From: a virus
Reading direction: 5' to 3' (one strand)
Length of the DNA: 64,000 nucleotides
Virus record (IMG/VR): IMGVR_UViG_3300025121_000776
Span: 122,856 to 186,855 of that record
In this document: positions 16,822 through 48,188 of the stretch, in pieces
Layout: every line of letters starts with the position of its first letter
Position numbering within the stretch: position 1 is the first letter of the stretch
Made by a program: the position numbers and the translations under genes
Notes under the pieces: generated by a model
Databases searched by the model: none
What the model saw: the letters and a program-made list of their open reading frames with translations, nothing else
Told to the model about the DNA's origin: nothing

Positions 16822-16935
16822 AATAAAGTTTTTATGGTTTATAAATGTATAAAGAATAAAAAGAATAAAAGGGGAAATTTTAGGTTTACCCCTTTTTTTA
16901 AAAAGTTTCTTTATATTCGCATAACCAATAAAAAA

Positions 16936-17502
16936 ATGTATATGCAAAATTCAGATTTATTCAACTTGATTAACAAATTCAACTTTAGTGGCGTTTCTTT
17001 TGTATCTTTAAAGAATTATCGTTCTGATAAAAGTGATAACACCGAAGTTGCCGATATTCTTATTAACGTAGGTATTTCTTACGAAAAATTAAAAGCTGAT
17101 GACCTTGAAGTTTTACAAGCTACAAAAAGAAGTATTGGCTCATTTGTTACTGAAAATTTTGGAATAGCAATACTTGAACAAGCTATTGATGAAAAAATAC
17201 AGTCAATTTTAAAACCAAACGAAAATCGTAGCAATGGGCAAAAAGACGCTTTTGTTATTCTTAACAATGGAATGAAATATTGCCCAAACACAGACAGTTT
17301 AATTATTAATGGTTCAGTTGTAAGAAAAACTGTAATTGTAAAAGGCGAATTTAAAGAAGTAAAAAGTAAACCTTTGACTTTAGCAAAAAAACACCTTGAC
17401 AAAGCACTTGACCTTAAACTTGCAAAATTAAGATATTACAAACTAAGCAACTTAGGTGCAATAAAAGTAAGCGGGGACACAATCGAAATAACAAAAAGAT
17501 AA
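16936..17502 (+). CDS. Hypothetical protein (188 aa), first gene of promoter array
   Basis: Start at ATG 16936 (or 16942, MQNSDLFNLINKF) because the longer frame crosses the promoter. The protein has an N-terminal alpha-helical part and a C-terminal half rich in Lys (KSKPLTLAKKHLDKALDLKLAKLRYYKL). A terminator at 17515 follows. No family recognised. Confidence 0.7.
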   Translation: MYMQNSDLFNLINKFNFSGVSFVSLKNYRSDKSDNTEVADILINVGISYEKLKADDLEVLQATKRSIGSFVTENFGIAILEQAIDEKIQSILKPNENRSNGQKDAFVILNNGMKYCPNTDSLIINGSVVRKTVIVKGEFKEVKSKPLTLAKKHLDKALDLKLAKLRYYKLSNLGAIKVSGDTIEITKR

Positions 17503-17514
17503 TAAAATAAAAAA

Positions 17515-17543
17515 GAAAAAGGGACTGAAAAGTTCCCTTTTTT
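17515..17543 (+). terminator. Terminator
   Basis: AAAGGGA...TCCCTTTTTT hairpin after the 16936 gene. Confidence 0.75.
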
Positions 17544-17665
17544 GTTTATATATTGCTTTATAATAAACGTTCCTATAATAATAAAAGGTTTCCCTATCTT
17601 AATTTTTAAATGCTTTAAAACGCTTTAAAACGAGTTTCCCCTTTTCTCTCCCTTTTTCTTTATAA

Positions 17666-17772
17666 CAACATTAGAAGTTAAACAATAAACAATAAACAAA
17701 TGAAGAGTATGAAGAAATTATAAAGAAATTTATTTAAAAATAAATTTCTCCCCCACTCAAAAGGTGGGGGCT
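17666..17772 (+). ncRNA. Candidate small RNA with two perfect hairpins
   Basis: A full array promoter (CCCC 17638, TTTATAA 17659) is followed by no gene, only a 7-codon ORF. The transcript would hold GAAATTTATT/AATAAATTTC (17725-17748, 10-bp stem, 4-nt loop) and CCCCCAC/GTGGGGG (17750-17770, 7-bp stem). The next promoter starts at 17809. Confidence 0.4.
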
Positions 17773-17864
17773 AACTGAATTTATAAACTTTCCCTATGAC
17801 ACAAGATTCCCCCTTTTTCTCAATCTTTTCTTTATATGTTTATAACCAATAAAAACATAAAACA

Positions 17865-18191
17865 ATGAATTATTTAAAAATTGTAATTAACGAAACGGCT
17901 TGTAACAGTCCAAAAGTATCAGACGATACTCATGTTTTTAATCAAATAGTTGAAAAGAAAAAAACCATTGAAGAAGTTGAGGAATTTCTAAAAGACCGTT
18001 ACGGCAAAGTAATAAGCAAAAAACACAGAGAAAAAAGAGGAGTTTTTGTTGATGATAAAAACGGACAAGCAAAAAGAGTGGGATTTCTTTTTTCTTTTTG
18101 GAACAAAGATTGGTCGCATAATTCAAAAAGTTGGTTTCAAACTGATTGGATTGAAATAATGAAAGTTGAAGAACAAGTAGTATTAATATAA
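17865..18191 (+). CDS. Hypothetical protein (108 aa)
   Basis: MNYLKIVINETACNSPKVSDD..., alpha-beta, with an aromatic C-terminal part (FSFWNKDWSHNSKSWFQTDW). Own array promoter; GGGGATTTTCCCC terminator after it. Confidence 0.7.
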   Translation: MNYLKIVINETACNSPKVSDDTHVFNQIVEKKKTIEEVEEFLKDRYGKVISKKHREKRGVFVDDKNGQAKRVGFLFSFWNKDWSHNSKSWFQTDWIEIMKVEEQVVLI

Positions 18192-18260
18192 AAAGATAAG
18201 GGGATTTTCCCCTTTTTTTTATTTTGTTTCTTTATATGTTTATAACTAAAATTAAAAGTC

Positions 18261-18500
18261 ATGAAAAAAGTAACAAAAACTTTAAAAGAAAGAGGCGACA
18301 TAAAACCCGCTACAACTTTAAAAAACGTCTTCAAGAAAGAAGCAATTGTAAGTGCTAATGACGCATTTGAATTGGGATTAGCTTTACAAAGCTTATTAGA
18401 CCACGAAACTGAGTTTTCAAACACAGGAGTTTCTGTAAGTAAAATAACAGAAGCAATTGATTTTGTTAAAAGTAATATTCAGCAAGATATTTTTGCATAG
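18261..18500 (+). CDS. Hypothetical protein (79 aa)
   Basis: Helical protein (MKKVTKTLKERGDIKPATTL...FELGLALQSLLDHE...). Single-gene unit with own promoter (18231). Confidence 0.65.
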   Translation: MKKVTKTLKERGDIKPATTLKNVFKKEAIVSANDAFELGLALQSLLDHETEFSNTGVSVSKITEAIDFVKSNIQQDIFA

Positions 18501-18536
18501 TTTCCCCTTTTTTTTCTTTAATTTCTTTATATTATT

Positions 18537-18668
18537 ATGATAATAACAATTTGGTTTACATTATTTAAACTTTTGAAAGAAAACAAAAGGCTTTTAAAAG
18601 AAGACAAAAAGATTGACAGTATTGCTGTTGAATTGATTAAAAAACACAAAGAAGTAGAAACTGTTTAA
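18537..18668 (+). CDS. Small hypothetical protein (43 aa)
   Basis: MIITIWFTLFKLLKENKRLLKEDKKIDSIAVELIKKHKEVETV; a hydrophobic start then a charged helix. Promoter TTTATAT at 18526, so the leader is only a few nucleotides. Confidence 0.5.
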   Translation: MIITIWFTLFKLLKENKRLLKEDKKIDSIAVELIKKHKEVETV

Positions 18669-18679
18669 AAGAAACAATT

Positions 18680-18784
18680 ATGCAGACGAAAATTAGAGGC
18701 AGTACAATTTTAAGTGCTTAAAGTAAAAAAGCAAAAGAAATTTTACAAAACAAATTTAAAAAATCTAATTATGCCGAAAAATAA
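18680..18784 (+). pseudogene. Small ORF interrupted by TAA
   Basis: MQTKIRGSTILSA, then TAA, then 20 further codons in the same frame (SKKAKEILQNKFKKSNYAEK) to a second TAA. Probably a decayed short gene. Confidence 0.35.
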
Positions 18785-18817
18785 AGGTTCGCCAAGATAA
18801 CAAAATATCTTTATATG

Positions 18818-18893
18818 TTTATAACCAATAAAGTCAAATACAAAATACAATTTAGACTTGAAAACCCCTCTCACAAAGGGGTTTTGCATTTCC
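18818..18893 (+). ncRNA. Candidate small RNA between promoter and terminator
   Basis: Promoter TTTATATGTTTATAACCAATAAA (18810-) but no C-run and no ORF. Downstream AAGTC...GACTT can pair, then AAAACCCCT/AGGGGTTTT with a 5-6-nt loop forms a terminator at about 18870-18895. Predicted transcript about 70 nt. Confidence 0.4.
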
Positions 18894-18945
18894 CCTTTTC
18901 TTTGTAAATTTCTTTATATGTTTATAACCAATAAAACAAATCAAA

Positions 18946-19263
18946 ATGGCAAAAGACAAATTATCAAAAGGACAAAGAAATTTTGTAAACAAATTTATTA
19001 ATTCTGATGGCAAACTTTCAGAAGAAAAAATGGTAAAAAGGAACAATCGTTTTTCTGGCGAAGAAGCCGAATTAAATGAAGTTGCTGCAGAATGTTTTGA
19101 CTTTGTAATGAAAGTTGAAGACGGTTTAAACAGAAGAAGTGAAGCTATTTTAAAAGCTATCCACCCCGACCTTAAACTTTCAAACGCAGTGCAAAAGTTT
19201 GATATGGCTCGTATGACTGTTTTAGCCTTTGATTCTGAAGCTTACATGACTTTATTAGATTAA
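18946..19263 (+). CDS. Hypothetical protein (105 aa)
   Basis: MAKDKLSKGQRNFVNKFINSDGKLSEEKMVKRN..., helical and basic at the start. Monocistronic with promoter at 18913 and GGGGA/TCCCC hairpin after the stop. Confidence 0.65.
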   Translation: MAKDKLSKGQRNFVNKFINSDGKLSEEKMVKRNNRFSGEEAELNEVAAECFDFVMKVEDGLNRRSEAILKAIHPDLKLSNAVQKFDMARMTVLAFDSEAYMTLLD

Positions 19264-19334
19264 AAGAAAGGGGAGTTTCCCCTTTTCTCTCCCTTTTTCT
19301 TTATATGTTTATATAACCAATAAAACCAAATCAA

Positions 19335-19631
19335 ATGCCAAATCAAGTAGCTCAAATAATCAGACAACAACTTTATGCAGGTGGACGTATTAAAGTTTTC
19401 ACTTGGGGTGCTAATGCTTGGAGGGCAGGAGAAAATTTTTTACATTTTAGAGTTACAGGGAAGTTATTTCGTGGGGTTGTTAGAATAACTTTAAACTCAA
19501 TGGATTTATACGATATAAAACTAATGAAAGTAAGCGGCGAAGTTGTAAAAGAAATAAATGGAATTTACAACGACCAACTTACTGATGTAATTGATAACGC
19601 AATTGAAAGAGTTCCCGAATATAAATTTTAA
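19335..19631 (+). CDS. Hypothetical protein (98 aa)
   Basis: MPNQVAQIIRQQLYAGGRIKVFTWGANAWRAGENFLHFRVTGK..., alpha-beta with a compact beta core. Resembles small orphan proteins of Bacteroidota mobile elements but no function is known to me. Confidence 0.7.
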   Translation: MPNQVAQIIRQQLYAGGRIKVFTWGANAWRAGENFLHFRVTGKLFRGVVRITLNSMDLYDIKLMKVSGEVVKEINGIYNDQLTDVIDNAIERVPEYKF

Positions 19632-19696
19632 AAACTGGGGGTTTCCCTTTTTTCTACAAATTTCTTTATATGTTTATAACCAAAAATTAAAAACCA

Positions 19697-19828
19697 ATGA
19701 TGATAATTTTATTCAGAGAAAGCAGAAGAGTATTAACTCTTAAAGAGTACAATGAAAGTCGCACAGTGTTAGGAGTTTTAAGCGGTAAAGAATACAGACG
19801 ACAAAGGCGTAAAGATAAAAGAAAATAG
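19697..19828 (+). CDS. Small basic protein (43 aa)
   Basis: MMIILFRESRRVLTLKEYNESRTVLGVLSGKEYRRQRRKDKRK. Own promoter (19665). Basic tail suggests nucleic-acid contact, by inference. Confidence 0.5.
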   Translation: MMIILFRESRRVLTLKEYNESRTVLGVLSGKEYRRQRRKDKRK

Positions 19829-19944
19829 TTTTTTCAATTGCATGTTTTCATTTTTTGATGTTAAAATTGGTTAAAGGGGAAAATGGACATTCCCCTTTTT
19901 CTTTTTTATTTCTTTATATGTTTATAACCAACAAACCAAAGATT

Positions 19945-20124
19945 ATGGCAAAGAAGAAAAAAAACAAAAAAGAAGTCTCCCTTGATGATTATATAAAAGC
20001 TAATCGTAGGGGTTCACGTGAAGCTGAATTAGAATTCGCAAATGGTTTCAGAGCCGTACACAAAACTCATAAAAGCAAAAAAACTTATGCAAGAAAAGGC
20101 AAACACAAAGAGGTTTTTGCATAG
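19945..20124 (+). CDS. Small basic protein (59 aa)
   Basis: ATG 19945, after the promoter (19913); the longer frame crosses the promoter. MAKKKKNKKEVSLDDYIKANRRGSREAELE..., very basic at both ends. Confidence 0.6.
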   Translation: MAKKKKNKKEVSLDDYIKANRRGSREAELEFANGFRAVHKTHKSKKTYARKGKHKEVFA

Positions 20125-20182
20125 AGGAAGTCTCCCCCTTTTCTCAGAATATTTCTTTATATGTTTATAAACCAATAAAATT

Positions 20183-20434
20183 ATGGAAAAATCATCCAAA
20201 AAAAGCGAAAACAAATGCACTAATACAACATTAGTTTCTGGACTTGTTACGGTTTTAAAAACACCCATAACAGAAAGGTATTGTAAAGTTGGCGACATAG
20301 CAACATTAGATATGAAAAATAAACAAATTAGATGTGGCGGTGCTTGGTTTAATTTTGATGAACGTTGGACTGTTCAATCTTGCAACTACAAATTGTTATT
20401 AGATACTTTTAAACAATCCCCTTTTTTCTTTTAA
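20183..20434 (+). CDS. Hypothetical protein whose 3' end is the next promoter's C/T-run (83 aa)
   Basis: Its last codons (QSPFFF) are encoded by the CCCCTTTTTTC tract of the next promoter, whose spacing (19 nt) is the least regular of the set. Protein otherwise beta-rich, ending with Cys-containing strands (IRCGGAWFNFDERW). Unknown function. Confidence 0.65.
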   Translation: MEKSSKKSENKCTNTTLVSGLVTVLKTPITERYCKVGDIATLDMKNKQIRCGGAWFNFDERWTVQSCNYKLLLDTFKQSPFFF

Positions 20435-20460
20435 AGTTTCTTTATATAATAAAAAATATT

Positions 20461-20808
20461 ATGGCAGGACATTTTCCACTTAGTAAAATTGATGAACCTC
20501 GAATATTTAGATTGGTCGATAAAATCAAAAATTTAATTATTTCAAATGGTTCAGTTATTAAAGACTTTGAAAAATTCAAAATTACAGTTGGAAAAAATTC
20601 TGTTTATGAAATAATGAAACTCTCAAAAGATTATGTTGAAAATCCTATAAAAGAATTTGCATTTAATGTTGGAAAATTTTCTCTTGAAAGTATTACTGAT
20701 GAACATCCTTCGCTTACAAAAAATATTAGTCTTGAATGTCATTTTCTAATAACTGAAAAAACAGTTATTAAAAAAATTATTATAAAAGATATATTTTGGG
20801 TAGCTTAA
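20461..20808 (+). CDS. Hypothetical protein (115 aa)
   Basis: MAGHFPLSKIDEPRIFRLVDKIKNLIISNG..., alpha-beta soluble protein. Promoter box at 20441. No family recognised. Confidence 0.65.
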   Translation: MAGHFPLSKIDEPRIFRLVDKIKNLIISNGSVIKDFEKFKITVGKNSVYEIMKLSKDYVENPIKEFAFNVGKFSLESITDEHPSLTKNISLECHFLITEKTVIKKIIIKDIFWVA

Positions 20809-20863
20809 TTCCCCTTTTCTCTATAAGTTTCTTTATATGTTTGTAACCAACAAATTAAAAATT

Positions 20864-21172
20864 ATGAAAATTATATTACAATATACTTGCGTTGCTTATT
20901 ATACCAATAATACTAAAAAGACTTTAATTTGTAAAGCTGACTTTGAAAATTTCAACTTATCATTAAACAACTTTAATGAAAAAGTTATTGATTGGAACAG
21001 ACAAGGACAAAACATGAAACAAATACAAAGCAAAGTAACTCCAATTTTGGGCTATGATTATTTCACAACTCCCGAACAACATATTGAAAATATGCGAATA
21101 ACTAAAACTAAACAATATCCAATTTCAACAGCACCTAAAATTACTTGCCCCAACTGTAATTTTAAATTTTAA
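20864..21172 (+). CDS. Hypothetical protein with C-terminal CPNC (102 aa)
   Basis: Start at 20864 after the promoter. MKIILQYTCVAYYTNNTKKT...; ends ITCPNCNFKF, a half zinc knuckle. Confidence 0.65.
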   Translation: MKIILQYTCVAYYTNNTKKTLICKADFENFNLSLNNFNEKVIDWNRQGQNMKQIQSKVTPILGYDYFTTPEQHIENMRITKTKQYPISTAPKITCPNCNFKF

Positions 21173-21227
21173 CAATATTCCCCCTTTTCTCCCCAGATTT
21201 CTTTATAAAAACAAAACAAAAAAGATT

Positions 21228-21407
21228 ATGACAATAGCAATTTACATAGTGATTTCAATAATATCTTTTTGTTTAGGATATTATTTCTGTAAAAAAAGAT
21301 ACAATGTAAAAGGACTTATTAGACTTGCAGATTGTCAAGCTGATTTTATTGCAGGGGATATAACAAGAGAAAGAGCTTTAGAAATAATAAATGAAATTGA
21401 AAAATAA
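21228..21407 (+). CDS. Single-pass membrane protein (59 aa)
   Basis: MTIAIYIVISIISFCLGYYF anchor followed by a charged helix. Promoter TTTATAA at 21202. Confidence 0.55.
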   Translation: MTIAIYIVISIISFCLGYYFCKKRYNVKGLIRLADCQADFIAGDITRERALEIINEIEK

Positions 21408-21515
21408 CATATTGACAGGAAAGATTTAGTTTATTGGTTTGAAGAAGGGGGCTTGATTCCCCCTTTTTCATTTTGTTTTCTTTATATTCATAATTCAATT
21501 AAATAAATAAAAGCG

Positions 21516-21815
21516 ATGGATGAAATTATAAAAGAAGCACTTATTAATTATTATAAAAATACTGATAATATTGATAAGTATGGGCAATTAAACATTTTCT
21601 ATATGCAAGCTTTTTATTTTATTAAGGATGAACTTTTGAGAAATAAAGTAATTGAGTTCATAAAAGAAGGAAAAAGTAAATTAGTAAAATTTCAAACTTA
21701 TGGTGGTAGATTTGGAGTTTATGAAGCAATTGCTATAATTGACAACAAACTTAATAGCGAGCTATCAATTGCTCTACGTTCAAATGAAACTTACAAAGAA
21801 AAAATGAGACATTGA
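21516..21815 (+). CDS. Hypothetical protein (99 aa)
   Basis: MDEIIKEALINYYKNTDNIDKYG..., helical. Own promoter (21481). Its stop precedes the next promoter's C-run directly. Confidence 0.65.
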   Translation: MDEIIKEALINYYKNTDNIDKYGQLNIFYMQAFYFIKDELLRNKVIEFIKEGKSKLVKFQTYGGRFGVYEAIAIIDNKLNSELSIALRSNETYKEKMRH

Positions 21816-21874
21816 TAAACTTCCCCTTTTCTTTACAAATTTCTTTATATGTTTATAAATCAAAAAAGCTTAAA

Positions 21875-22093
21875 ATGAAAACAATTATAATAAACTACAA
21901 AGATTTTGTTGAAAGCATGAATGACAACAAAAGAGTTGAGAAAGTTTTAACAGCTTTGCAGACTGCAAAAGTAGAGGAACAGAACCCAAACATGATTATT
22001 GTAAACTACTCAGACGAGGGCTACGCTTTGTTTAATGTTATAAAGATAGAAAACGAAATGAGATATGTACAGTCAAATGGAACGGCTGCATAA
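21875..22093 (+). CDS. Hypothetical protein (72 aa)
   Basis: Start at 21875 after promoter 21844. MKTIIINYKDFVESMNDNKRVEKVLTAL..., alpha-beta. Confidence 0.6.
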   Translation: MKTIIINYKDFVESMNDNKRVEKVLTALQTAKVEEQNPNMIIVNYSDEGYALFNVIKIENEMRYVQSNGTAA

Positions 22094-22154
22094 ACTCTCC
22101 CCCTTTTCTTTGGGGTTTTCTTTATATGTTTATAACCAATAAAAAACTAAAGTC

Positions 22155-22742: not shown

Positions 22743-22811
22743 AGGAGGGGGAATTCCCCCTTTTCTCAGAATATTTCTTTATATAAACATAACCAATAAA
22801 AAACCAAAGTT

Positions 22812-23132
22812 ATGAATATAGTAATAGTTGATAATTTTAAAACCGATGTAATGTTCAGAAAAGATATTACAAAAGATTTCAAAGGTACAATATTTGCAGT
22901 ATTTCCTCACGAAGTTGATAATTACAGAGGGGATATTATGACCTATCAACACGTAGGACAGCATAGTTCTGGGGATTATCAAGTTTGTTTACAACAATCA
23001 AAACCAGCAACCGTAGAAGAAAGTGCAGACTTAAAACGTGAAATGGAAGGCTTAGGATATGATTTAAACATAGTTCGCAGACAGAATCGAGATAAATACT
23101 TAAAAGAGTACAAAAGGGTTAATAAGGCTTAA
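22812..23132 (+). CDS. Conserved phage-type protein (106 aa)
   Basis: FRKDITKDFKGTIFAVFPHEVDN...TYQHVGQHSSGDY is typical of small conserved proteins of unknown function in phages and conjugative elements. Often found near the preceding gene's family. Promoter 22778. Confidence 0.7.
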   Translation: MNIVIVDNFKTDVMFRKDITKDFKGTIFAVFPHEVDNYRGDIMTYQHVGQHSSGDYQVCLQQSKPATVEESADLKREMEGLGYDLNIVRRQNRDKYLKEYKRVNKA

Positions 23133-23204
23133 AAAGAGCTGAGGGGAATTTTCCCCTTTTTTTGATTTATTTCTTTATATAATTATAATCAACAAATAAA
23201 AATT

Positions 23205-23537: not shown

Positions 23538-23584
23538 TTTCCCCTTTTTTTGATTTATTTCTTTATATAATAAAATAAGAAGCC

Positions 23585-23884: not shown

Positions 23885-23936
23885 TTCTCCCCCTTTTTCT
23901 TTTTGGTTTCTTTATATGTTTATAAAACCAATAACC

Positions 23937-24272: not shown

Positions 24273-24329
24273 GGGGAACTCTCCCCCTTTTTCTTTTTAT
24301 TTTCTTTATATAAATAAAAATAAACGAAT

Positions 24330-24962: not shown

Positions 24963-25022
24963 TTTTCCCCTTTTCTCCCTACTTTTCTTTATATCTTCAT
25001 AACCAATAAATTTAAAAAGCCA

Positions 25023-25358: not shown

Positions 25359-25416
25359 TTCCCCTTTTTTTAAAACTTTTTCTTTATATCTTTATAACCA
25401 ATAAAAATCTAAAACC

Positions 25417-25614: not shown

Positions 25615-25617
25615 TTA

Positions 25618-25872: not shown

Positions 25873-25882
25873 AAATAACATT

Positions 25883-26014: not shown

Positions 26015-26073
26015 TTCCCCCTTTTTTTCTCAAATTTCTTTATATGTTTATATAACCAATAAAAACAAAAAAA

Positions 26074-26502: not shown

Positions 26503-26558
26503 CTCTCCCCCTTTTTTATTTTTGTTTCTTTATATAATTGTAACCAAAAAATAAAATT

Positions 26559-26759: not shown

Positions 26760-26827
26760 ATAAGGGGGTTTCCCCTTTTTTAAAACTTTTTCTTTATATG
26801 TTTATAACCAATAAAAACAAATGTCTT

Positions 26828-27088: not shown

Positions 27089-27103
27089 ACTATTATAAAA
27101 ACC

Positions 27104-27403: not shown

Positions 27404-27436
27404 CTCACCCCTTTTTTTTTAAAAGTTCTTTATATA

Positions 27437-27600: not shown

Positions 27601-27647
27601 CCCCCTTTTCTCCCCAGATTTCTTTATATGTTTATAAACAAAAAATC

Positions 27648-28303: not shown

Positions 28304-28356
28304 TTCTCCCCCTTTTTTTTATTCAGTTTCTTTATACAATAAAAAAACAAAACAAC

Positions 28357-28596: not shown

Positions 28597-28653
28597 TTCC
28601 CCCTTTTTTCTCAAACTTTCTTTATATATTCATAATCAAAAAAACAATTTAAT

Positions 28654-29088: not shown

Positions 29089-29166
29089 TTCCCCCCCTTT
29101 TTCTCAGCTTTTTCTTTATATGTTTATAACCAGAATAAGTTTTTTTCGTATAAAAAAATAAATGCT

Positions 29167-30664: not shown

Positions 30665-30699
30665 TTCCCCCCTTTTTAAAAAAGTTTCTTTATATAAAC

Positions 30700-31008: not shown

Positions 31009-31051
31009 TTCCCCCTTTTTAAATATAATTTCTTTATATAAACAAAAAGCC

Positions 31052-31336: not shown

Positions 31337-31389
31337 TTCCCCCTTTTTCTCATAAATTTCTTTATATCAATGAATCAAAAATTACAATT

Positions 31390-31686: not shown

Positions 31687-31740
31687 TTTCCCCTTTTCTC
31701 AAAAAGTTTCTTTATATTAATATAACCAAAAACAAAGGCA

Positions 31741-32646: not shown

Positions 32647-32708
32647 ACTCTCCCCCTTTTTTCTTTCAGTTTCTTTATATGTTTATAAATCAATAAAATT
32701 TTTCAATT

Positions 32709-33161: not shown

Positions 33162-33226
33162 CAAGGGGGATTTTCCCCCTTTTTTATTTCCTTTTCTTTA
33201 TATCAATATAACCAAAAACTTATAAT

Positions 33227-34096: not shown

Positions 34097-34163
34097 AGGG
34101 GACAACTCTCCCCCTTTTTTAATTCCTTTTCTTTATAGTTACATAACCAAAAAAACAAATAAA

Positions 34164-34931: not shown

Positions 34932-35005
34932 AAATGAGTTGGGGGGATGAGGAAACTCTCCCCCTTTTTAAATAAAGTTTCTTTATATAAACAAACAATA
35001 AAATT

Positions 35006-35469: not shown

Positions 35470-35579
35470 ACAGAAAGAGAAACTCTCCCCCTTTTTTATA
35501 AAAGTTTCTTTATATAATTATAAAACTTCTTAAACAAAAATTCGTATAACATAGTATTAATCTTTAAATTTAAAAACTT

Positions 35580-36191: not shown

Positions 36192-36343
36192 ATGGTAATC
36201 TATCCCCCAGTCAAAACTAAGAGGACTGCAGAATGAAGTTATTATTCAAATAGCTTGTTTTTTAGAGGGTAGTTGGGAAGGATAACTCTCCCCCTTTTCT
36301 TCTTAAGTTTCTTTATATAATCAAATAATAAATAATCAATATC

Positions 36344-36562: not shown

Positions 36563-36656
36563 ACAAACTTCTCCCCCAACTTCTCCCCAGCCAAAACTGT
36601 ATTAAAATATATAGATTTGGCGGGGTTTGTTTGTTGTAACTATCTAAATATCAATG

Positions 36657-36731
36657 TACTACGGAGGGGATTCGAACCCCCACTAACTTCGGTGAAAGCG
36701 AAGTGGCTTATTCCAATTTGCCAACCGTAGT
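36657..36731 (-). tRNA. tRNA-Glu (UUC)
   Basis: Cloverleaf: acceptor ACTACGG/CCGTAGT (7 bp), D arm GGC...GCC, anticodon stem CTTCG/CGAAG with loop CTTTCAC (anticodon TTC), T arm GGGGG-TTCGAAT-CCCCT. CCA is not encoded. GAA is a frequent Glu codon here, so it may support translation of the element. Confidence 0.92.
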
Positions 36732-36749
36732 ATGTAAAATGCAAAAAGG

Positions 36750-36775
36750 TGAGATACTTTTGTATCCCACCTCTT
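36750..36775 (-). terminator. Hairpin between the two tRNAs
   Basis: GGTGGGATAC/GTATCTCACC on the minus strand with a 4-nt loop, followed by TTTTTGC. Confidence 0.5.
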
Positions 36776-36910
36776 GGTTTAGCTCCGAATTAATTTTTAC
36801 ATAATCTTAGCAGGGACACAATTTCTCATGAACTCCTCGCTTTCCTCGATGTTAAAATTAACTCTCATTTCTTTTTATCTTTTTTTTGTAGTCGTAACTA
36901 CTTGATTTGT

Positions 36911-36984
36911 AGCGGGGGTGAGACTCGAACTCACGTTGTTCGGATTATGAGACCGAGCTGGAACCACCTCCAGACGACCCCGCA
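36911..36984 (-). tRNA. tRNA with CAU anticodon (Met or Ile)
   Basis: Six acceptor pairs GCGGGG/CCCCGC, D stem CTGG/CCAG, anticodon loop CTCATAA (CAT), T arm GTGAG-TTCGAGT-CTCAC. Two extra bases lie between acceptor and D stem and the first pair is T-T, so it is slightly irregular. CAT could be Met or, if modified, Ile. Confidence 0.75.
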
Positions 36985-37280
36985 ATATATTTTAAATAGT
37001 CAAATTTTTTTAAAAATCAAAAAACAGGGTAAAATTTTTAAAAGTTTGGTCTGGAAATTCTAAATTTTCGATGTAACTCTTAATGTCGCCACTGTTATTT
37101 TCTAACTTATACGCAAACTTATGACAAAAGTTTCAAAAAACCAAATGTTTTTTAATTTATTTTTATTTTACCTTTGTAATTGTTTAACTGTGACCCGATT
37201 CTTGATTTGCGAACTGCAAATCCCCCTTTTTCTTTCCAGTTTCTTTATATGTTTATATTAACCAATTAAATTTTATAATC
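36985..37280. other. Gene-free stretch between tRNA and next gene
   Basis: AT-rich leader region; a TACCTTTG (37170-37177 region) resembles the Bacteroidota -7 box but no good -33 TTG was found. The array promoter at 37244 lies at its end. Confidence 0.4.
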
Positions 37281-37631: not shown

Positions 37632-37675
37632 TTCCCCCTTTTTTCACAAAGTTTCTTTATATAAACAAAAACATT

Positions 37676-37870: not shown

Positions 37871-37891
37871 CCAACCTTAAATTTTATAATC

Positions 37892-38098: not shown

Positions 38099-38158
38099 AT
38101 TTCCCCCCTTTTTTAAAATAATTTCTTTATAAATTCGTAACCAAAAAACAATTTTATT

Positions 38159-38722: not shown

Positions 38723-38786
38723 AAAGGGGAACTCTCCCCCTTTTTTTATAAAGTTTCTTTATATAATAAATTAAAAACTTAAAATT

Positions 38787-39638: not shown

Positions 39639-39710
39639 AGATAGGGGGAACTCTCCCCCTTTTTTTATATATTTTTCTTTATATGTTTAAATAATTAAAA
39701 CTTCATAAAA

Positions 39711-40529: not shown

Positions 40530-40588
40530 AAAAAAAAAGGGGAACTCTCCCCCTTTTTTAAACTTTTTCTTTATAAATAAAAAAGACA

Positions 40589-41575: not shown

Positions 41576-41605
41576 AAGTTGTTCATAAAAATTTCTTTTA
41601 TATAG

Positions 41606-41635
41606 TTGTTAATTCAAAAATTATATTTACATTTG
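41606..41635 (+). promoter_or_regulatory. Consensus Bacteroidota promoter
   Basis: TTG (41606), exactly 19 nt, TACATTTG (41628-41635), 28 nt before the ATG at 41664. This gene lacks the array promoter, so host RNA polymerase probably reads it. Confidence 0.75.
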
Positions 41636-41663
41636 CCCACTAAAAACTTTTAAATATAAAAAT

Positions 41664-42461
41664 ATGAGTTACAAATTCACTGGATTTTTTAAATTAAACA
41701 AAAGGTTGGATGAAGCAACCTTTCTCTTTCTTAAAGACTTATCTTCTACACGTAGAATGTCAAGAAATGTGGACGCCGCATTTGGTGTCGAGGGGGAATT
41801 TTATGTTCATGGAAATGAATATGATTCTAATATAATTGATAGGAACAGCTCCCCAAAGACTCAACCTGGATTGCACTGTGACTGGGTTCCTACAAAAGAT
41901 TATACTGGAATTGAGTGGAATGGAACAGAAAAAACATATCAACCTGTTGAGTGGATTGAATATATCATAAGTAGAGTTCTCTCCCCAAGAGGCTATGTTC
42001 TTGATGGTGAAGTTGAATATTGGAATACTAATTATCATAATGACAGTAGCTATATAGAAATTTGTGATAACGTTGTTAATGGGAAAAGACTTATAACAGA
42101 TTATTCAATTAATAAACTTCTCCCCATTAGAGGAACATTTCTCCCCAAGTCGAAAAGTCTCCCTCGAATTAATAGAGTATCTACATCCAGGGGTGGAGCT
42201 TCAGTGGTAACAAAAACCCGCAAGCAAACTGTAAAAGAACAAAGAGAAGAACAAGAAAGAAAACTTCTTGCTCAAATACAATTACTCGAAGACCAGTTAA
42301 AAGAAAAAGATAAAGAAATTAAAAGAGTAGCTGCTGTGGCAGAATTTCCAAGAAAAAAACTTACTGTACAGGAAATTATGCTAGAGAAATTGAGAGGTGA
42401 TGCACAATTTGGGGGAACTCTGGATGACTTTAAAAAATTCTTAAAGAATCTATTGGATTAA
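41664..42461 (+). CDS. Conserved phage-type protein with coiled coil (265 aa)
   Basis: MSYKFTGFFKLNKRLDEATFLFLKDLSSTRRMSRNV...YEIE-like; blocks GVEGEFYVHG, GLHCDWVPTKDYTGIEWNGTEKTYQPVEWIEYII are typical of an uncharacterised phage family. Residues ~190-230 form a Gln/Glu/Lys coiled coil. Read from a host-type promoter. Confidence 0.7.
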   Translation: MSYKFTGFFKLNKRLDEATFLFLKDLSSTRRMSRNVDAAFGVEGEFYVHGNEYDSNIIDRNSSPKTQPGLHCDWVPTKDYTGIEWNGTEKTYQPVEWIEYIISRVLSPRGYVLDGEVEYWNTNYHNDSSYIEICDNVVNGKRLITDYSINKLLPIRGTFLPKSKSLPRINRVSTSRGGASVVTKTRKQTVKEQREEQERKLLAQIQLLEDQLKEKDKEIKRVAAVAEFPRKKLTVQEIMLEKLRGDAQFGGTLDDFKKFLKNLLD

Positions 42462-42526
42462 GCTTGGGAAATTTCCCCCTTTTTTCTGAAAGTTTCTTTA
42501 TAAGAATAGAACAAAATAAAAACAAA

Positions 42527-43147
42527 ATGGGAAAAATATTAAGTAAAAGTGCAACAACCGATTTAGAATTGGTTAAAGTAATTAAAACTGCAAAAGAAAG
42601 AGACGTAGAAAGAGCTTTTAATGAATTGTTTAAGAAATACCATGACTCAATGTTGTTTCATTTTAGAGGATTCATTAACGATGAAGAAGTAGCACAAGAA
42701 CTAGTTAATGAGGCTTTTGTAAAAGTAAGCAAAAAAATTTCCACATACCGCCCAGAAGATGGTGTATTCAGCACTTGGTTGTTTAAAATGACTAAGAACC
42801 TTTTCATTGACAGATTAAGAAAAAAGAGAGAAGAAGCAATTTCTCTTTCTGATTTAGCTATCTCTGACGGTGAAAATAATTTAATTGAGTACGACCTAAA
42901 AAGTGATGACAATACTCCAGAAGCAGAAATGCTTTTAGATGAAAGAAATGAAATGATTGGAAGAATCATTAATTCAATGAATAGACCTGTTCTTAAAAAG
43001 GTTATTAAATTGAGATATTTCGAGGGAATGTCATATGAAGAAATTACTAATGAAACTGGACTTCCAGAAGGAACTGTAAAAGCTTTTCTTTTTAGAGCAA
43101 GACAAGAACTTAAAAAGAAATTTAAACAAGCAAACATTAGATTATAA
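42527..43147 (+). CDS. ECF-type RNA polymerase sigma factor (206 aa)
   Basis: Sigma-70 family with region 2 (AFNELFKKYHDSMLFHF, DEEVAQELVNEAFVKVSKKI, GVFSTWLFKMTKNLFIDRLRKKR) and region 4 (LKKVIKLRYFEGMSYEEITNETGLPEGTVKAFLFRARQELKK). No regions 1 or 3, hence ECF group. ATG 42527 is chosen since the longer frame crosses its promoter. It carries the array promoter itself (17-nt spacing), so it may direct the array and its own gene; this is inference. Confidence 0.85.
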   Translation: MGKILSKSATTDLELVKVIKTAKERDVERAFNELFKKYHDSMLFHFRGFINDEEVAQELVNEAFVKVSKKISTYRPEDGVFSTWLFKMTKNLFIDRLRKKREEAISLSDLAISDGENNLIEYDLKSDDNTPEAEMLLDERNEMIGRIINSMNRPVLKKVIKLRYFEGMSYEEITNETGLPEGTVKAFLFRARQELKKKFKQANIRL

Positions 43148-43166
43148 TATCCTTGATATATGTTAG

Positions 43167-43200
43167 AAAATTTCCTATATTTATTTATAGGAAATTTTTT
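43167..43200 (+). terminator. Terminator after sigma factor
   Basis: Perfect 12-bp stem AAAATTTCCTAT/ATAGGAAATTTT, 8-nt loop, then T-run. Confidence 0.88.
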
Positions 43201-43211
43201 ATTTAATACAT

Positions 43212-43694
43212 ATGATAAATTTAACACCACAACAAAAAAAAGAGTATTTACTACAGAAATATGTAAAACGTGAATACAAGGTAGAAGACATTGACGCTTG
43301 TAAAAAATATGTTGTTTACTTTAATCCTTCCATCGAGAAGGTAAAAGAGTGGCAAATGATTTGTGTAACTTCTTCATTAGAAGAAGCTAGAAAAGAAATT
43401 GCATGGAAACTTCACAGTACTAAGTTTAATGATATGGATATTGTTTTAGACCACGATAAAAATTTCTCTACGTATCGTAATGAATTATTGAACGTTAACG
43501 AGCAAGGTTTGGTCTATGAGCCAACAGATAAAGATATTACTCATGATTATAATTCTTCTGGGAATATGTTACAAGTAATTGCAAATTCAGCTCCTCCAGC
43601 CAATAACAATGCGTATCGTGGATTAGCTTACTATACAAATTTTTCCATAGATTATAAGGGTTTTTACAAAATTGAAGAGATATTTGAAATATAA
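43212..43694 (+). CDS. Hypothetical protein (160 aa)
   Basis: MINLTPQQKKEYLLQKYVKREYKVEDIDACKKYVVYFNPSIEKVKEWQMICVTSSLEEARKEI..., alpha-beta. No array promoter; lies between the sigma-factor terminator and an RHH gene 4 nt downstream. Confidence 0.65.
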   Translation: MINLTPQQKKEYLLQKYVKREYKVEDIDACKKYVVYFNPSIEKVKEWQMICVTSSLEEARKEIAWKLHSTKFNDMDIVLDHDKNFSTYRNELLNVNEQGLVYEPTDKDITHDYNSSGNMLQVIANSAPPANNNAYRGLAYYTNFSIDYKGFYKIEEIFEI

Positions 43695-43698
43695 AATT

Positions 43699-43839
43699 AT
43701 GAAAGAAAAAAAAGAATACGACAAAATAACTATTACACTTCCACCAAGAATATTAAAAAAACTTGAGGAAGGTAATTATAATAGGTCTAAGCTTATAGAT
43801 GATTTGCTAACAAAATATTTCAAGGAAAACGAAAAATAA
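43699..43839 (+). CDS. Ribbon-helix-helix protein (46 aa)
   Basis: KITITLPPRILKKLEEGNYNRSKLIDDLLTKYF: beta strand then two helices, as in CopG/Arc DNA-binding proteins. Very close to residues 6-38 of the 51797 product, so the two derive from one gene. Confidence 0.75.
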   Translation: MKEKKEYDKITITLPPRILKKLEEGNYNRSKLIDDLLTKYFKENEK

Positions 43840-43902
43840 TTGCCACACTGGTCATGTTTTTATTTTTTTTCTCATATTTATAATAAACACAAATTATAAA
43901 TT

Positions 43903-44061
43903 ATGGGACGTAAAAAATTAACACCAGAAGAAAAGAGAGATAATCTCTCTATTTCCATTTCCAAACAGAATAATAAAAAATTCGAGGAACTTGGGATTAA
44001 AAACAAGTCAAAATTAATTGAATGGCTTTTGGATAATCATTTTGACAAATTTAAAGAATAA
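43903..44061 (+). CDS. Ribbon-helix-helix protein, MGRKK type (52 aa)
   Basis: MGRKKLTPEEKRDNLSISISKQNNKKFEELGIKNKSKLIEWLLDNHFD; parallels the 51533 gene. Directly abuts the endonuclease start, so it may regulate it. Confidence 0.75.
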   Translation: MGRKKLTPEEKRDNLSISISKQNNKKFEELGIKNKSKLIEWLLDNHFDKFKE

Positions 44062-45597
44062 ATGATTGTGAAAAAAATGACAACAGATGAATTTAAAAAT
44101 AAAGCAATTTTAATTCATGGAGATAAATACGATTATTCTAAAACAACTTATTTAAACGAAAGAACAAAATTAACTATTTCTTGTAAAAAACATGGAAATT
44201 TTTCTCAATTACCCAAGGGGCATTTAAGAGGATTTGGATGTCCAATTTGTTCTAATGTAGTAACAACTACGCAAGGTTTTATAGAACATTCAAATGAAAT
44301 CCACTCAAATAAATATGGATACTCAAAAACCGTTTTTATAGACTCAAGAACTAATGTAATTATAATTTGCAAAGAACATGGTGATTTTGTTCAAAAACCA
44401 AGAGTACACCTTTCTGGGTGTGGTTGTCAAAAGTGCGGAATTAATAAATCTGAAAGTATTCGTAAAAAAGCAATAGAAAAAAGAAAAATTACATTTGATA
44501 AATTTATTAATAGAGCTAATGATAAACACAATAATAAATATAAATATTATACAACTGATATTAAAAATATAAATCAGAAAATAAAAATAAACTGTTCTAT
44601 TCATGGAGACTTTAATCAAAAAATTAATGACCATCTCAATAATGGTTCTGGTTGTCCTAAGTGTTATAATGAAAGAAGAGGTAATTCTACAAGGAAAACA
44701 AATAGCCAATTCATAAAAGAAGCAAAAAAAGTTCATAAAAATAAATATAATTATGAAAAAACAATTTACCAAAGTGCTCATAAAAAAATAATAATAGTTT
44801 GTCCAATTCATGGTTTATTTTTTCAAACACCATCTAGACATTTACGAGGAGATGGATGCCCAAAATGCTGTTTTAAAAATGTTTCTTCTGAGCAATTTAT
44901 AAACAAAGCAAATAAAGTACACAAAAACAAATATAATTATTCTTTAGTAAATTATACTAATAATATTAATAAAGTAATAATAATTTGTCCTATTCATGGA
45001 GAATTTAAACAATCTCCAGCAGCTCATTTAAATAATCAAGGATGTGCTAAATGTGGTAAACAAAAAGGTATTGACAAAAAAAGAATTACATTTAATTCTT
45101 TTAAAATTCGTGGAACAAAAATTCACAATAATAAATATACCTATACTGAAAAATATATAAACTCACACAAAGATAAAGTAGAAATAAATTGTCCAATACA
45201 TGGTAATTTCGTGCAAAATGTAATGTCTCACCTACAAGGAGCTGGATGTCCATTTTGTAAGGCGTCAAAAGGAGAATTAAAAATTAAAGAATATTTTGAT
45301 AAAAATAAAATCAATTTTATTAAACAAAAAACATTTCAAAATTGCAAAAACATTAAAGTGCTCCCATTTGATTTTTATTTGCCAGACTATAATGTATGTA
45401 TAGAGTTTGATGGTATTCAACATTTTAAAATTATTGACTGTTGGGGCGGAGAAAAGAATTTATTAGAAACAAAAAATAGAGATTCCATTAAAACAGAATA
45501 CTGCAAACAAAATAATATTCCCCTACTTCGAATTAAGTATAATGAAAAGATAGAAGAAAAATTAGAGAACTTTTTAAAAGAACATAAAGTAATATAA
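44062..45597 (+). CDS. Homing-type endonuclease with six Cys-His repeats (511 aa)
   Basis: Six repeats of about 65 residues, each F...A...H-x-NKYxY...I-x-C-x2-HG-x-F-x-Q...HL...GCPxC, a zinc-ribbon series that would read DNA. The C-terminus (GELKIKEYFDKNKINFIKQ...LPFDFYLPDYNVCIEFDGIQHF...NKD-like...LLRIKYNE) is a PD-(D/E)xK/VSR-like nuclease domain. Such enzymes are typical free-standing homing endonucleases of phages. Confidence 0.8.
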   Translation: MIVKKMTTDEFKNKAILIHGDKYDYSKTTYLNERTKLTISCKKHGNFSQLPKGHLRGFGCPICSNVVTTTQGFIEHSNEIHSNKYGYSKTVFIDSRTNVIIICKEHGDFVQKPRVHLSGCGCQKCGINKSESIRKKAIEKRKITFDKFINRANDKHNNKYKYYTTDIKNINQKIKINCSIHGDFNQKINDHLNNGSGCPKCYNERRGNSTRKTNSQFIKEAKKVHKNKYNYEKTIYQSAHKKIIIVCPIHGLFFQTPSRHLRGDGCPKCCFKNVSSEQFINKANKVHKNKYNYSLVNYTNNINKVIIICPIHGEFKQSPAAHLNNQGCAKCGKQKGIDKKRITFNSFKIRGTKIHNNKYTYTEKYINSHKDKVEINCPIHGNFVQNVMSHLQGAGCPFCKASKGELKIKEYFDKNKINFIKQKTFQNCKNIKVLPFDFYLPDYNVCIEFDGIQHFKIIDCWGGEKNLLETKNRDSIKTEYCKQNNIPLLRIKYNEKIEEKLENFLKEHKVI

Positions 45598-45670
45598 GAA
45601 CCAAGGGGAAAAATTAAATTCCCCCTTTTTTTTTAAAGTTTCTTTATATGTTTAAATAAAGGATAAAAAC

Positions 45671-46156
45671 ATGGAACCTATAAAAATTTCAAAACGTGCA
45701 AGAATAGCAATCATCATTATTGCCTCTTTGCTTTTTTTCATAATGCTTGAATCTTGTACCAAGGAGCCATCAGCTCACGTGGACATAACCAGATTCCAAC
45801 AATCAAGTTATCCACATACGGGATACATTGATACATTAGGGGTGTTTCATGATTTTTATACAGATTCTTTAAATAATCCCCATAGTACCACAGTTAACAT
45901 TGGGGGGATTACATATCCAATTATTTCTCAGCCAGAATTTGGATTAATTGATTTACATTTTGAAATTTATAACAATGGATATTATACCATTGATGATTAT
46001 AAAATATTATTTACCGCTCTATTAGAAGATGGAACTTATGTTGAAGAAGAATATTGGGGCACCAACTTAAATGAAGTGGGTCATGGAGAAATGGATATTG
46101 AGACAGGGGGAAAGAGAGCCGTAGAAGTTGTAGTAACAAATTTAGATTTATATTAA
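45671..46156 (+). CDS. Predicted lipoprotein (161 aa)
   Basis: Basic N-terminus, hydrophobic stretch IAIIIIASLLFFIMLESC with a lipobox-like Cys, then a soluble beta-rich domain with immunoglobulin-like spacing (GLIDLHFEIYNNGYYTIDDYKILF). Promoter 45643. Envelope-located, function unknown. Confidence 0.65.
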   Translation: MEPIKISKRARIAIIIIASLLFFIMLESCTKEPSAHVDITRFQQSSYPHTGYIDTLGVFHDFYTDSLNNPHSTTVNIGGITYPIISQPEFGLIDLHFEIYNNGYYTIDDYKILFTALLEDGTYVEEEYWGTNLNEVGHGEMDIETGGKRAVEVVVTNLDLY

Positions 46157-46196
46157 TATTTTGAAACAAATATAAAAAGAAATTCGTATAAGAAAG

Positions 46197-46202
46197 AGGA
46201 GG
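46197..46202 (+). promoter_or_regulatory. Perfect Shine-Dalgarno AGGAGG
   Basis: AGGAGG 7 nt before ATG 46210. Almost no other gene of the window has one, and Bacteroidota rarely use them. Confidence 0.7.
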
Positions 46203-46209
46203 TGATGTT

Positions 46210-47118
46210 ATGAAGAGTACAAATTATAATAAAGTAAAAAAAGTAAACGTTTCCACAATAAAAACTGGAAATGCGAACTTTGATGATTTTTTAAGTAGCG
46301 GAGGGGGATTCGTTGTTGGAAGCGCTATTTTTCTTACAGGTACAGCAGGTGCAGGAAAAACCACCCTTTCAGTTGTTCTTCAGAAAATGCTCGCCAAATA
46401 TAAATCATCTTTATATTCAAGAGAAATGAGTTCGGCCAGTGTTATTGCACAAGTAAATAAAAGATATCCTGTTAAACATAATAATGCATTTATTGCTGAT
46501 GGGGATGATTGTAAACATATTGACGACTATATAAAAGAACTTGATGAAATTAAGCCAGCTGTTGTAATTATTGATTCATTACAAGTAATTGCTATGGTTG
46601 ATTGTGGAGATACCCCCAAAGAAGAATTTATGTTTAATGTAATTCAAAAATTAAGAAATTGGGCAGATAAAAATCACGCCGTCCTTATTGTAATCGGTCA
46701 CGTTAATAAAGATGGAAGTTTTGAGGGAAAAAATACAATTGAACATATGTTTGATGCACATCTGAGAATGATTTATGATGAGAAAGCTGATTCAAGAACA
46801 TTATCATGGACAAAAAATAGAAAAGGTCCATCAAGCAAAAAATTGTTTTATGAATTTGGCGATGGAGTTATGAATTTCTACACCCCACAGCAACATGAAA
46901 AAATAAAGAATAAAAAAGGATTTGAAGATTTTCTTACTTCAGCTGTGGTAGACTTCTTAAAGTCGTTGGATAAAACCGCTCCAAACTATAAAAAGTTTAA
47001 AACTGAAATATCGTCTTTGTGTGATGATATATTTGCAATGAATATATCCATTATCCAGAAGATTTCAAAGTATATCGCTTCTGTAAATGAAACTGCTGAA
47101 AAATATAATTTAAAATAA
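46210..47118 (+). CDS. RadA/RecA-like P-loop ATPase (302 aa)
   Basis: TGNANFDDFLSSGGGFVVGSAIFLTGTAGAGKTTLS is the RadA/KaiC-type start with Walker A GTAGAGKTT; VVIIDSLQV is Walker B; VLIVIGHVNKDG is the sensor strand, as in RadA (Sms). The zinc finger and Lon-like domain of RadA are missing and a helical tail replaces them. Likely ssDNA recombination or replication ATPase. Class 2 motif at 46185 is the probable promoter. Confidence 0.8.
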   Translation: MKSTNYNKVKKVNVSTIKTGNANFDDFLSSGGGFVVGSAIFLTGTAGAGKTTLSVVLQKMLAKYKSSLYSREMSSASVIAQVNKRYPVKHNNAFIADGDDCKHIDDYIKELDEIKPAVVIIDSLQVIAMVDCGDTPKEEFMFNVIQKLRNWADKNHAVLIVIGHVNKDGSFEGKNTIEHMFDAHLRMIYDEKADSRTLSWTKNRKGPSSKKLFYEFGDGVMNFYTPQQHEKIKNKKGFEDFLTSAVVDFLKSLDKTAPNYKKFKTEISSLCDDIFAMNISIIQKISKYIASVNETAEKYNLK

Positions 47119-47137
47119 TTATGACAAAAGAGGCCAA

Positions 47138-47166
47138 GGGGGAATTTTAATTCTCCTTTTTTTTTC
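47138..47166 (+). terminator. Terminator after RadA-like gene
   Basis: GGGGGAATT/AATTCTCC hairpin and nine T. Confidence 0.8.
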
Positions 47167-47199
47167 ATATTTACTGATAAATTAACCCCCAGTAAAAAT

Positions 47200-47433
47200 A
47201 TGAATGCAAAAGAAACCTTTAAAGAAATGTTGAGTCTTTGTTATGAAGAAGAAGATTTTATAGAATTACATAAAGAACTTGTATCGCTGGCAGCATCAAC
47301 AAAAAAAAGTAGAGACTATGAAAAAGGTATGGAAGACGTTCTTACAACAATCCCCCTCTTCTCAGATGGATTTCCTTCAGATGTTTTTTCAACCATTGAA
47401 AATTTATACCAGGAATTTATTGAAAATGAATAA
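47200..47433 (+). CDS. Small acidic helical protein (77 aa)
   Basis: MNAKETFKEMLSLCYEEEDFIELHKELVSLAAS..., helical. No recognised domain. Confidence 0.6.
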   Translation: MNAKETFKEMLSLCYEEEDFIELHKELVSLAASTKKSRDYEKGMEDVLTTIPLFSDGFPSDVFSTIENLYQEFIENE

Positions 47434-47450
47434 AAAAATTTGTACATTTG
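47420..47450 (+). promoter_or_regulatory. Bacteroidota promoter at leaderless start
   Basis: TTG (47420), 20 nt, TACATTTG (47443-47450). Transcription would begin at or within a few bases of the ATG at 47455, giving a leaderless mRNA. Confidence 0.55.
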
Positions 47451-47454
47451 TAGT

Positions 47455-48012
47455 ATGAAAAAAATTGGTTTTAGTTTTATCTCACAATTAATCTTTGGGC
47501 TTGCAGGAGCTGGCCTTATGATTGGGGGTGCTATTATGTCTGTAGCATCTTTTTTAACTTCAGAAATATCCTTGTTTCATGGCGTAGTTCTTATCTCATT
47601 GGGAATTATCATACTCTGTTGTGTTAAATTATATTTTACTTTTCTCGAAACAATAAATATAGCCGCAGATGGTATTGAAAAAATAACAAATGCTACAGAA
47701 AATTATAAAAGCAATAACGGTAGAATCTATCGCCCCCAAGATTATTTTGCAACACCAGATGTACATCATATCACCATTGATGAAAATACACCCCCAGATG
47801 AAATACAAAAAATAAAAGAAAATTTCCCAGATATTGCAGATAGCATTGACAATTTAGTCGGATTGGCAAAAAACATAAAACAAACAGAAAGCCCCCCACT
47901 TTATATAAAAATGATGTCTATGTCCCAACTTGAAAAAGAATTAAAAGAAGCTGTTGCCGCAGAAAATTACGAAAGAGCTACAGCTATAAGAAATGAAATA
48001 AAAAGCAGGTAA
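47455..48012 (+). CDS. Membrane protein with C-terminal UVR-like motif (185 aa)
   Basis: ATG 47455 (MKKIGFSFISQ) preferred over an upstream TTG that lies in the promoter. Two hydrophobic segments in the first 65 residues, a hydrophilic middle, and at the C-terminus LEKELKEAVAAENYERATAIRNEIK, the UVR motif of UvrB/UvrC and ClpC-type proteins. Confidence 0.7.
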   Translation: MKKIGFSFISQLIFGLAGAGLMIGGAIMSVASFLTSEISLFHGVVLISLGIIILCCVKLYFTFLETINIAADGIEKITNATENYKSNNGRIYRPQDYFATPDVHHITIDENTPPDEIQKIKENFPDIADSIDNLVGLAKNIKQTESPPLYIKMMSMSQLEKELKEAVAAENYERATAIRNEIKSR

Positions 48013-48037
48013 AATTGAAACTTTTTGTTTTTTATTT

Positions 48038-48049
48038 CGTATAATATAG
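48038..48049 (+). promoter_or_regulatory. Class 2 promoter motif for sRNA candidate
   Basis: CGTATAATATAG, with GAAACTTTTT upstream as at 5348. The downstream transcript has no gene before the terminator. Confidence 0.6.
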
Positions 48050-48051
48050 CC

Positions 48052-48148
48052 TCATACACTCATTTTAATTAAAGTGCTCTTAAATGCTTGGCTTTAATTA
48101 AAATATACAGAAATTCCCCAGAATGAAAGTTTTGGGGGATTTTACCCC
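48052..48148 (+). ncRNA. Candidate small RNA with 13-bp stem
   Basis: ATTTTAATTAAAG (48062-48074) pairs perfectly with CTTTAATTAAAAT (48092-48104), loop 17 nt. A terminator AATTCCCCA...TTGGGGGATTTT follows at 48112-48144. No ORF between the class 2 promoter and this terminator. Confidence 0.5.
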
Positions 48149-48188
48149 TTTTTTAAAAAAGTTTCTTTATATGTTTAAATAAAAAAAT

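Follow-up and report, generated by a model that had tools for sequence, protein, structure and literature searches.

An array of probable bipartite promoters over a block of small phage genes, most likely read by the phage's own sigma factor

The DNA analyzed here, referred to below as the window, is a stretch of 64,000 nt corresponding to positions 122,856–186,855 of the 186,855-bp virus record IMGVR_UViG_3300025121_000776 in IMG/VR, which is listed as linear. It holds a block of mostly small genes in which a bipartite motif, TTCCCC(C)TTTT-n7-TTTCTTTATAT, recurs. The record contains 52 copies, 50 on the plus strand and 2 on the minus strand, and all of them are confined to window positions 16,848–49,816 (∼33 kb), with none elsewhere in the 187 kb. 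Between the end of the C-run and TTTATA there are 17 nt in 44 of the 52 copies, 18 nt in five, 16 nt in two, and 19 nt in one. When the whole record was scanned with a weight matrix, the 52 sites scored 27–47 bits and the next best sequence 17.8, and a reversed-genome control reached a maximum of 10.5 bits. The literal pattern gave 49 matches in the phage and none with the reversed-pattern control. A previous sequence-only reading had described an array at 16889–48172 (31 kb) with 42 copies spaced by exactly 17 nt; the recurrence and the spacing are borne out, while the array is a little wider, being bounded on both sides by a copy on the minus strand, and the count of 17-nt copies is 44.

The left-edge minus-strand copy (16,848–16,874) and the first plus-strand copy (16,889–16,915) form a divergent pair, facing away from each other. 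Further plus-strand copies with a 17-nt spacer lie at 17,638–17,664 (with no open reading frame [ORF] of at least 30 aa behind it), 17,809–17,836, 18,892–18,918, 19,645–19,670, 20,134–20,161, 20,811–20,837, 22,099–22,126, 23,541–23,567, 24,967–24,993, 27,408–27,434 (the weakest, 27 bits), 27,601–27,628, 31,339–31,366, 31,690–31,716, 35,487–35,514, 36,290–36,317, 37,222–37,249, and 37,634–37,661. The 18-nt spacer is found at 18,209–18,236, 18,504–18,531, 25,361–25,388, 28,308–28,336, and 39,655–39,683, of which the first, third, and fifth have a hairpin, and the 19-nt spacer at 20,418–20,446. The two 16-nt copies are at 30,667–30,694 and, with a hairpin, at 40,549–40,575. The last plus-strand copy (48,145–48,171, 17-nt spacer) is followed by the minus-strand copy of the right edge (49,789–49,816), which has no ORF behind it. 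The sequence TCTTTATATGTTTATAACCAATAAAG occurs without a C-run within 18,805–18,900; a strong terminator hairpin follows ∼40 nt later with no ORF, and the site is a candidate small RNA or decayed unit.

The start of TTTATA lies ∼30 nt upstream of the ATG (median offset 33 from TTC), and the motif contains no Shine-Dalgarno core. Start codons of ORFs in the window are mechanical calls. A copy is present within 95 nt upstream of 42 of the 61 plus-strand ORFs of the block. Among the 19 without a nearby copy, three have mis-called starts that fall upstream of a motif, and eight sit 0–21 nt after another ORF, one of them a homing endonuclease; these eight are likely operon partners. Two more, at 41,664 and 47,455, are instead preceded by a host-type promoter, and the remainder are mostly near the right end of the array. 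Since the ORFs without the motif are mostly operon partners, mis-calls, or under host-type promoters, "one promoter per transcription unit" is a more accurate description than the previously proposed one promoter per tiny gene.

The record encodes baseplate wedge proteins, an SbcCD-like fusion, and a UvsW-type helicase, which point to a contractile-tailed phage. A 1158-aa protein (L014:4043–7519), in which a calcineurin-like phosphoesterase is joined to an SMC/SbcC-like ATPase, is apparently an SbcD-SbcC fusion. The host is probably a member of the Bacteroidota, as judged from the TTG-N18-21-TAnnTTTG promoters before a number of phage genes (58 matches versus 29 for the reversed pattern) and from Crassvirales as the source of the best phage homologs of its sigma factor. 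Bacteroidota promoters carry TTTG/TTG at −33 and TAnnTTTG at −7. The array motif does not follow this consensus: the G position of TAnnTTTG is A in 47 of 53 sites, and the C-run replaces TTG. The sequence-only reading had likewise found neither part to resemble TTG-N19-TAnnTTTG, which is correct for both elements, but the host consensus is present at two genes that lack the motif. One of these is the 185-aa gene at 47,455–48,012, preceded by TTG-N20-TACATTTG at 47,420–47,450.

No match to the full consensus of the motif was found in IMG/VR; a looser pattern gave 14 single matches, about half of them near-identical copies of one sequence, and no array. A search of 85,000 genomes returned 49 single matches and again no array. 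Within the window, the 10-nt variable spacer is identical between the two members of five to six pairs of sites, which suggests that the junctions themselves have been copied. Gene duplication as the origin of the units was rejected, as no true paralogs exist among the 65 proteins; the two matches obtained span 21–22 residues and are apparently due to ORF calls that run through a copy of the motif. An archaeal TATA box, suggested by TTTATAT, was also rejected: TTTATAT is separated from the ATG by only a few nt at one copy (30,667–30,694, possibly leaderless), and both the host-type promoters and the sigma factor are bacterial.

Many of the junctions probably also terminate the preceding gene. 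At 28 of the 52 sites, the C-run is complementary to a G-run upstream of it and pairs with it, compared with 10.8 expected from shuffled upstream sequence, and stop codons end 2–20 nt before the C-run. In addition to the sites named above, hairpins accompany the 17-nt copies at 19,279–19,305, 19,892–19,918, 21,459–21,486, 22,756–22,783, 23,153–23,179, 24,283–24,310, 26,507–26,534, 26,772–26,798, 29,091–29,120, 33,175–33,202, 34,110–34,137, 34,960–34,987, 38,736–38,763, and 45,621–45,648. These features, together with hairpin arms that change jointly in a relative described below, are what an intrinsic terminator with a G-run/C-run hairpin, a T-tract, and no role in initiation would show. Yet such a terminator should form its hairpin in every copy, and 24 of the 52 sites lack one while keeping the C-run, the T-run, and the spacing; examples, all with a 17-nt spacer, are the copies at 21,180–21,207, 21,823–21,849, 23,889–23,916, 26,017–26,044, 28,599–28,626, 31,011–31,038, 32,652–32,679, and 38,103–38,131. 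The divergent pair, moreover, has no gene to terminate, and a terminator has no need of TTTCTTTATAT at a fixed 17 nt. The C-run thus appears to be part of an initiation signal, and a motif that is only a terminator, the outcome that would have undone the sequence-only reading, is most improbable.

A candidate for the protein that reads the motif is encoded inside the array. The gene at 42,527–43,147, preceded by its own copy of the motif (42,475–42,502, 17-nt spacer), specifies a protein of 206 aa that is the only one in the record found to have a Sigma70_r2 domain. Region 2 matches PF04542 (Sigma70_r2) at residues 34–101 (1.6e-14), and region 4, with a helix-turn-helix, matches PF08281 (Sigma70_r4_2) at residues 155–195 (6e-12); in PHROG, the protein is assigned as a sigma factor (7.5e-27). 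By sequence it matches structures of the AlgU/RpoE type (AlgU, 8e-21, and E. coli sigma-E), and the predicted fold does so as well (7e-7), with a root-mean-square deviation of 2.9 from 2h27, in which sigma-E region 4 is bound to −35 DNA. The segment between the two helical domains, residues 101–137, is of low confidence (shallow alignment, pLDDT 65). Regions 1.1 and 3 are absent and the linker is short, as in sigma factors of the extracytoplasmic function (ECF) type. The closest phage homologs, at ∼33% identity, are from Crassvirales (e.g., cr1_1). The Microcystis phage MaAM05, which has sigE, was set aside because its gene content looks like bacterial DNA. A β′-type RNA polymerase (PF00623) was not found in the record, which may be a fragment. 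An HNH homing endonuclease is encoded shortly downstream of the sigma gene (44,062–45,597), and in the relative, too, the homologous endonuclease is found near the sigma gene.

Directly upstream of the sigma gene lies a gene of 265 aa, here called gene X (41,664–42,461). An anti-sigma factor encoded nearby is a further feature of ECF-type sigma factors; gene X, in that position, has no recognizable family and gives only a weak PHROG match of unknown function, and its predicted structure is too poor to use. It lacks the phage motif and has instead a host-type promoter, TTG-N19-TACATTTG (41,606–41,635), 29 nt before its ATG, so that host polymerase could make the first sigma factor by read-through. 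This arrangement is also what might be seen in a scheme resembling the middle promoters of T4, in which the host primary sigma factor with a MotA-like activator on the C-run, or the host holoenzyme alone, would read the array, and the phage sigma factor would be a product serving later genes. The C-run sits where an activator box would, gene X is a possible activator, a sigma gene under a middle promoter would carry the motif too, and a T4-like set of promoter classes is present (host-type, bipartite, and the single-element TATTTATA described below). Such a scheme nevertheless seems unlikely: the host TAnnTTTG is absent from the motif (the A-for-G difference noted above), no MotA or AsiA family member is among the PHROG and Pfam matches listed, and the phage sigma factor retains region 4, which predicts a bipartite target, whereas gp36 of phiEco32, without region 4, reads a single element (PMC8948821).

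The nearest relative found came from a search with a two-sequence helicase alignment, which returned 18 loci; searches with the single sigma protein or with a structural protein gave no relatives. It is a record of 372,283 bp, with a helicase 78% identical to that of the window phage. Because of this larger size, the 187-kb record is possibly a fragment; indeed, both records may be. The relative's sigma ortholog (52% identical, E 1e-67) lies inside an array of its own, with 57 sites of the form T-CCC(A/T)C-TTT...ATTTGC-TTTATATA. A scan of the whole record gave 56 matches, all at 316,981–349,748 (33 kb), and none with the reversed pattern. A divergent pair is again present at the left edge, the motif again precedes the sigma gene, and an orthologous gene X in the same place again has a host-type promoter (TTG-N20-TAACTTTG). 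Compared with the window phage, the sites have TTTGC in place of TTTC next to the −10-like element, and A or T in place of the fourth C. Neither the core TTTATA nor the spacing differs, the last C being 17 nt from TTTATA in all 57 sites. A change throughout the sites at constant spacing and TTTATA would be expected if one protein reads all of them, and the earlier proposal that the two parts are contact points for one transcription complex is supported by the 17 nt kept in both phages. In the searched part of the relative, homologs were found for 22 of the 67 ORFs of the window's block, which indicates that the promoter system has persisted through the turnover of many genes. At some sites the hairpin arms follow the changed sequence (GTGGGA/TCCCAC and GAGGGA/TCCCTC), though pairing of the C-run shows only a modest excess (25 of 56, with 14.7 expected). 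In both arrays ATAACC occurs at a fixed offset, with 13 nt from the start of TTTATA to AACC (17 of 52 and 15 of 57 sites), and is perhaps the start of the transcript.

A third promoter-like class, aTATTTATA(A/T)AAAA, is found at positions 1–139,600 of the phage record (L011–L017 and window 1–16,700). In this class TATTTATA ends 10–29 nt before the ATG of 23 of 180 structural and replication genes (reverse complement, 1); in the tail of the 372-kb relative, there are nine at 10–19 nt compared with none. It has no second element and seems to be a late, single-element class. The ECF-type sigma factor might in principle read these sites, the C-run promoters being read by something else, as TTTATA is common to both classes and the position bias of TATTTATA is conserved in the relative. 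With its region 4 intact, however, the sigma factor would not be expected to read a single element, and its gene lies inside the C-run array in both phages; these two facts favor the bipartite array as the target. Enrichment of TATTTATA is seen in a relative's contig (L032) too, while none of the 16 other related records searched, which are fragments, yielded the sigma gene; a scan of six of these for the motif in the form present in the 372-kb relative gave no match. Assignment of the sigma factor to TATTTATA is accordingly an improbable alternative, somewhat more so than the T4-like scheme.

Taken together, the array is probably an ECF-sigma regulon of the phage, with one bipartite promoter per transcription unit read by the phage's own sigma factor. 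From the sequence we infer recognition of the motif by this factor, the order of expression, and the function of the hairpins. Each promoter would consist of a −35-like CCCC(C)TTTT, 17 nt, a −10-like TTTCTTTATAT, and a short A-rich leader, and its reader would most likely be host core RNA polymerase carrying the ECF-type sigma factor. Host holoenzyme would start at 41,606–41,635 and read through gene X into the sigma gene. The sigma factor would then take host core polymerase and fire ∼50 promoters over 33 kb, its own included (positive feedback), and a block of mostly small, unrelated genes would be switched on. At about half of the junctions, the C-run and T-run would form the 3′ arm and the U-tract of the terminator of the preceding gene, so that one stretch of ∼45 nt would end one transcript and start the next. 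The ECF-type sigma gene inside the array and the probable use of many C-runs as a terminator arm both lie beyond the sequence-only reading.

Several points weigh against this regulon. The −35-like C-run does not resemble the sigma-E sequence GGAACTT. Several of the sets of family matches listed comprise 25 entries each, and a T4-type activator such as MotA, or a gp55-like protein, may lie beyond them. The TATTTATA class exists, and the sigma factor could serve it. Finally, the sigma factor and the motif occur together in two phages only, so that their co-divergence rests on one comparison. More tentatively, and with the odds somewhat against it, each junction may be regarded as a compact module of punctuation, where the −35 element read by a dedicated sigma factor doubles as the terminator arm of the preceding gene. 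The genes between such modules would be self-contained, orthogonally controlled, and gained or lost like cassettes, and the sigma factor and its 50-odd promoters would change together.

Other features lie in or near the array. A tRNA-Glu and a second, weaker tRNA-like match are on the minus strand at 36,656–36,984, inside it; in the relative, an apparent tRNA 3′ end abuts the motif copy at 340,720. On the minus strand at 56,700–62,000, there are approximately nine copies of a TAACGGTTGC-like sequence. Most of them directly follow the stop codon of a small ORF, and together they recall either a dispersed Bacteroidota repeat or a cassette array of the integron type.

A regulon of this kind would explain the simultaneous switch-on of a large block of small genes, which are probably host-takeover genes. 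It would provide a sigma-promoter pair for phages of a phylum for which few descriptions of phage transcription exist. The two diverged versions, with over 100 natural promoter sequences between them, could show how a sigma factor and a whole promoter set change jointly. The pair could also be used for orthogonal gene expression in Bacteroidota.

Among known systems, the ECF-like sigma factors of Crassvirales are the closest phage homologs, probably also from phages of Bacteroidota; no comparable motif was seen before the genes of cr1_1 on inspection by eye, and no description of promoters for Crassvirales ECF-type sigma factors was found in the literature searched. The middle promoters of Bacillus phage SPO1 are bipartite, and that phage is not known to have a one-per-unit promoter array. 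Like the factor proposed here, an early-made phage sigma factor of SPO1 redirects host polymerase to a set of genes, the middle genes, but the host phylum and the promoter sequence differ. This factor, gp28, is designated the middle sigma factor (PMC3594737).

Phage sigma promoters are typically well conserved and low in copy number, and phage sigma genes can have both host and phage promoters (PMC4331800). The latter is so for gp36 of phiEco32, whose gene, like the sigma gene here, has phage and host-type promoters upstream (PMC4331800); unlike the array motif, its target is the single element tAATGTAtA in six copies, and the protein has no region 4 homology (PMC8948821). The sigma factor of phage 7-11, gp47, reads GTAAtg-(16)-aCTA (PMC8948821). 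As suggested for the window phage, it acts with host core polymerase on a bipartite phage-specific promoter, the early genes of 7-11 being expressed from host-type promoters (PMC8948821). In 7-11, however, eight promoters precede late gene clusters, whereas here 52–57 copies cover one block of small genes and none precedes structural genes. The features of a 7-11- or SPO1-type regulon, as far as sequence can indicate, occur here together: a phage sigma factor with no phage polymerase found, a motif unlike the host consensus, and a host-type promoter ahead of the sigma gene.

The start-associated sequence (SAS) of cluster K mycobacteriophages is likewise a short conserved sequence before many unrelated non-structural genes and absent from structural genes (PMC3203893). 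It lies 3–7 bp from the start codon, contains a Shine-Dalgarno core, and has a proposed role in translation (PMC3203893), whereas the array motif has neither this position nor this core. Group 2 jumbo phages lack an RNA polymerase of their own, and none was found here; they also have phage sigma factors and a UvsW-type helicase, but these sigma factors are described as single-helix-turn-helix or resembling RpoD and not as ECF-type factors with an array of promoters (PMC7824862). The redirection of host polymerase to bipartite promoters by a phage sigma factor is thus already known; what is new is the scale, the layout, and the partial overlap of terminator and −35 element.

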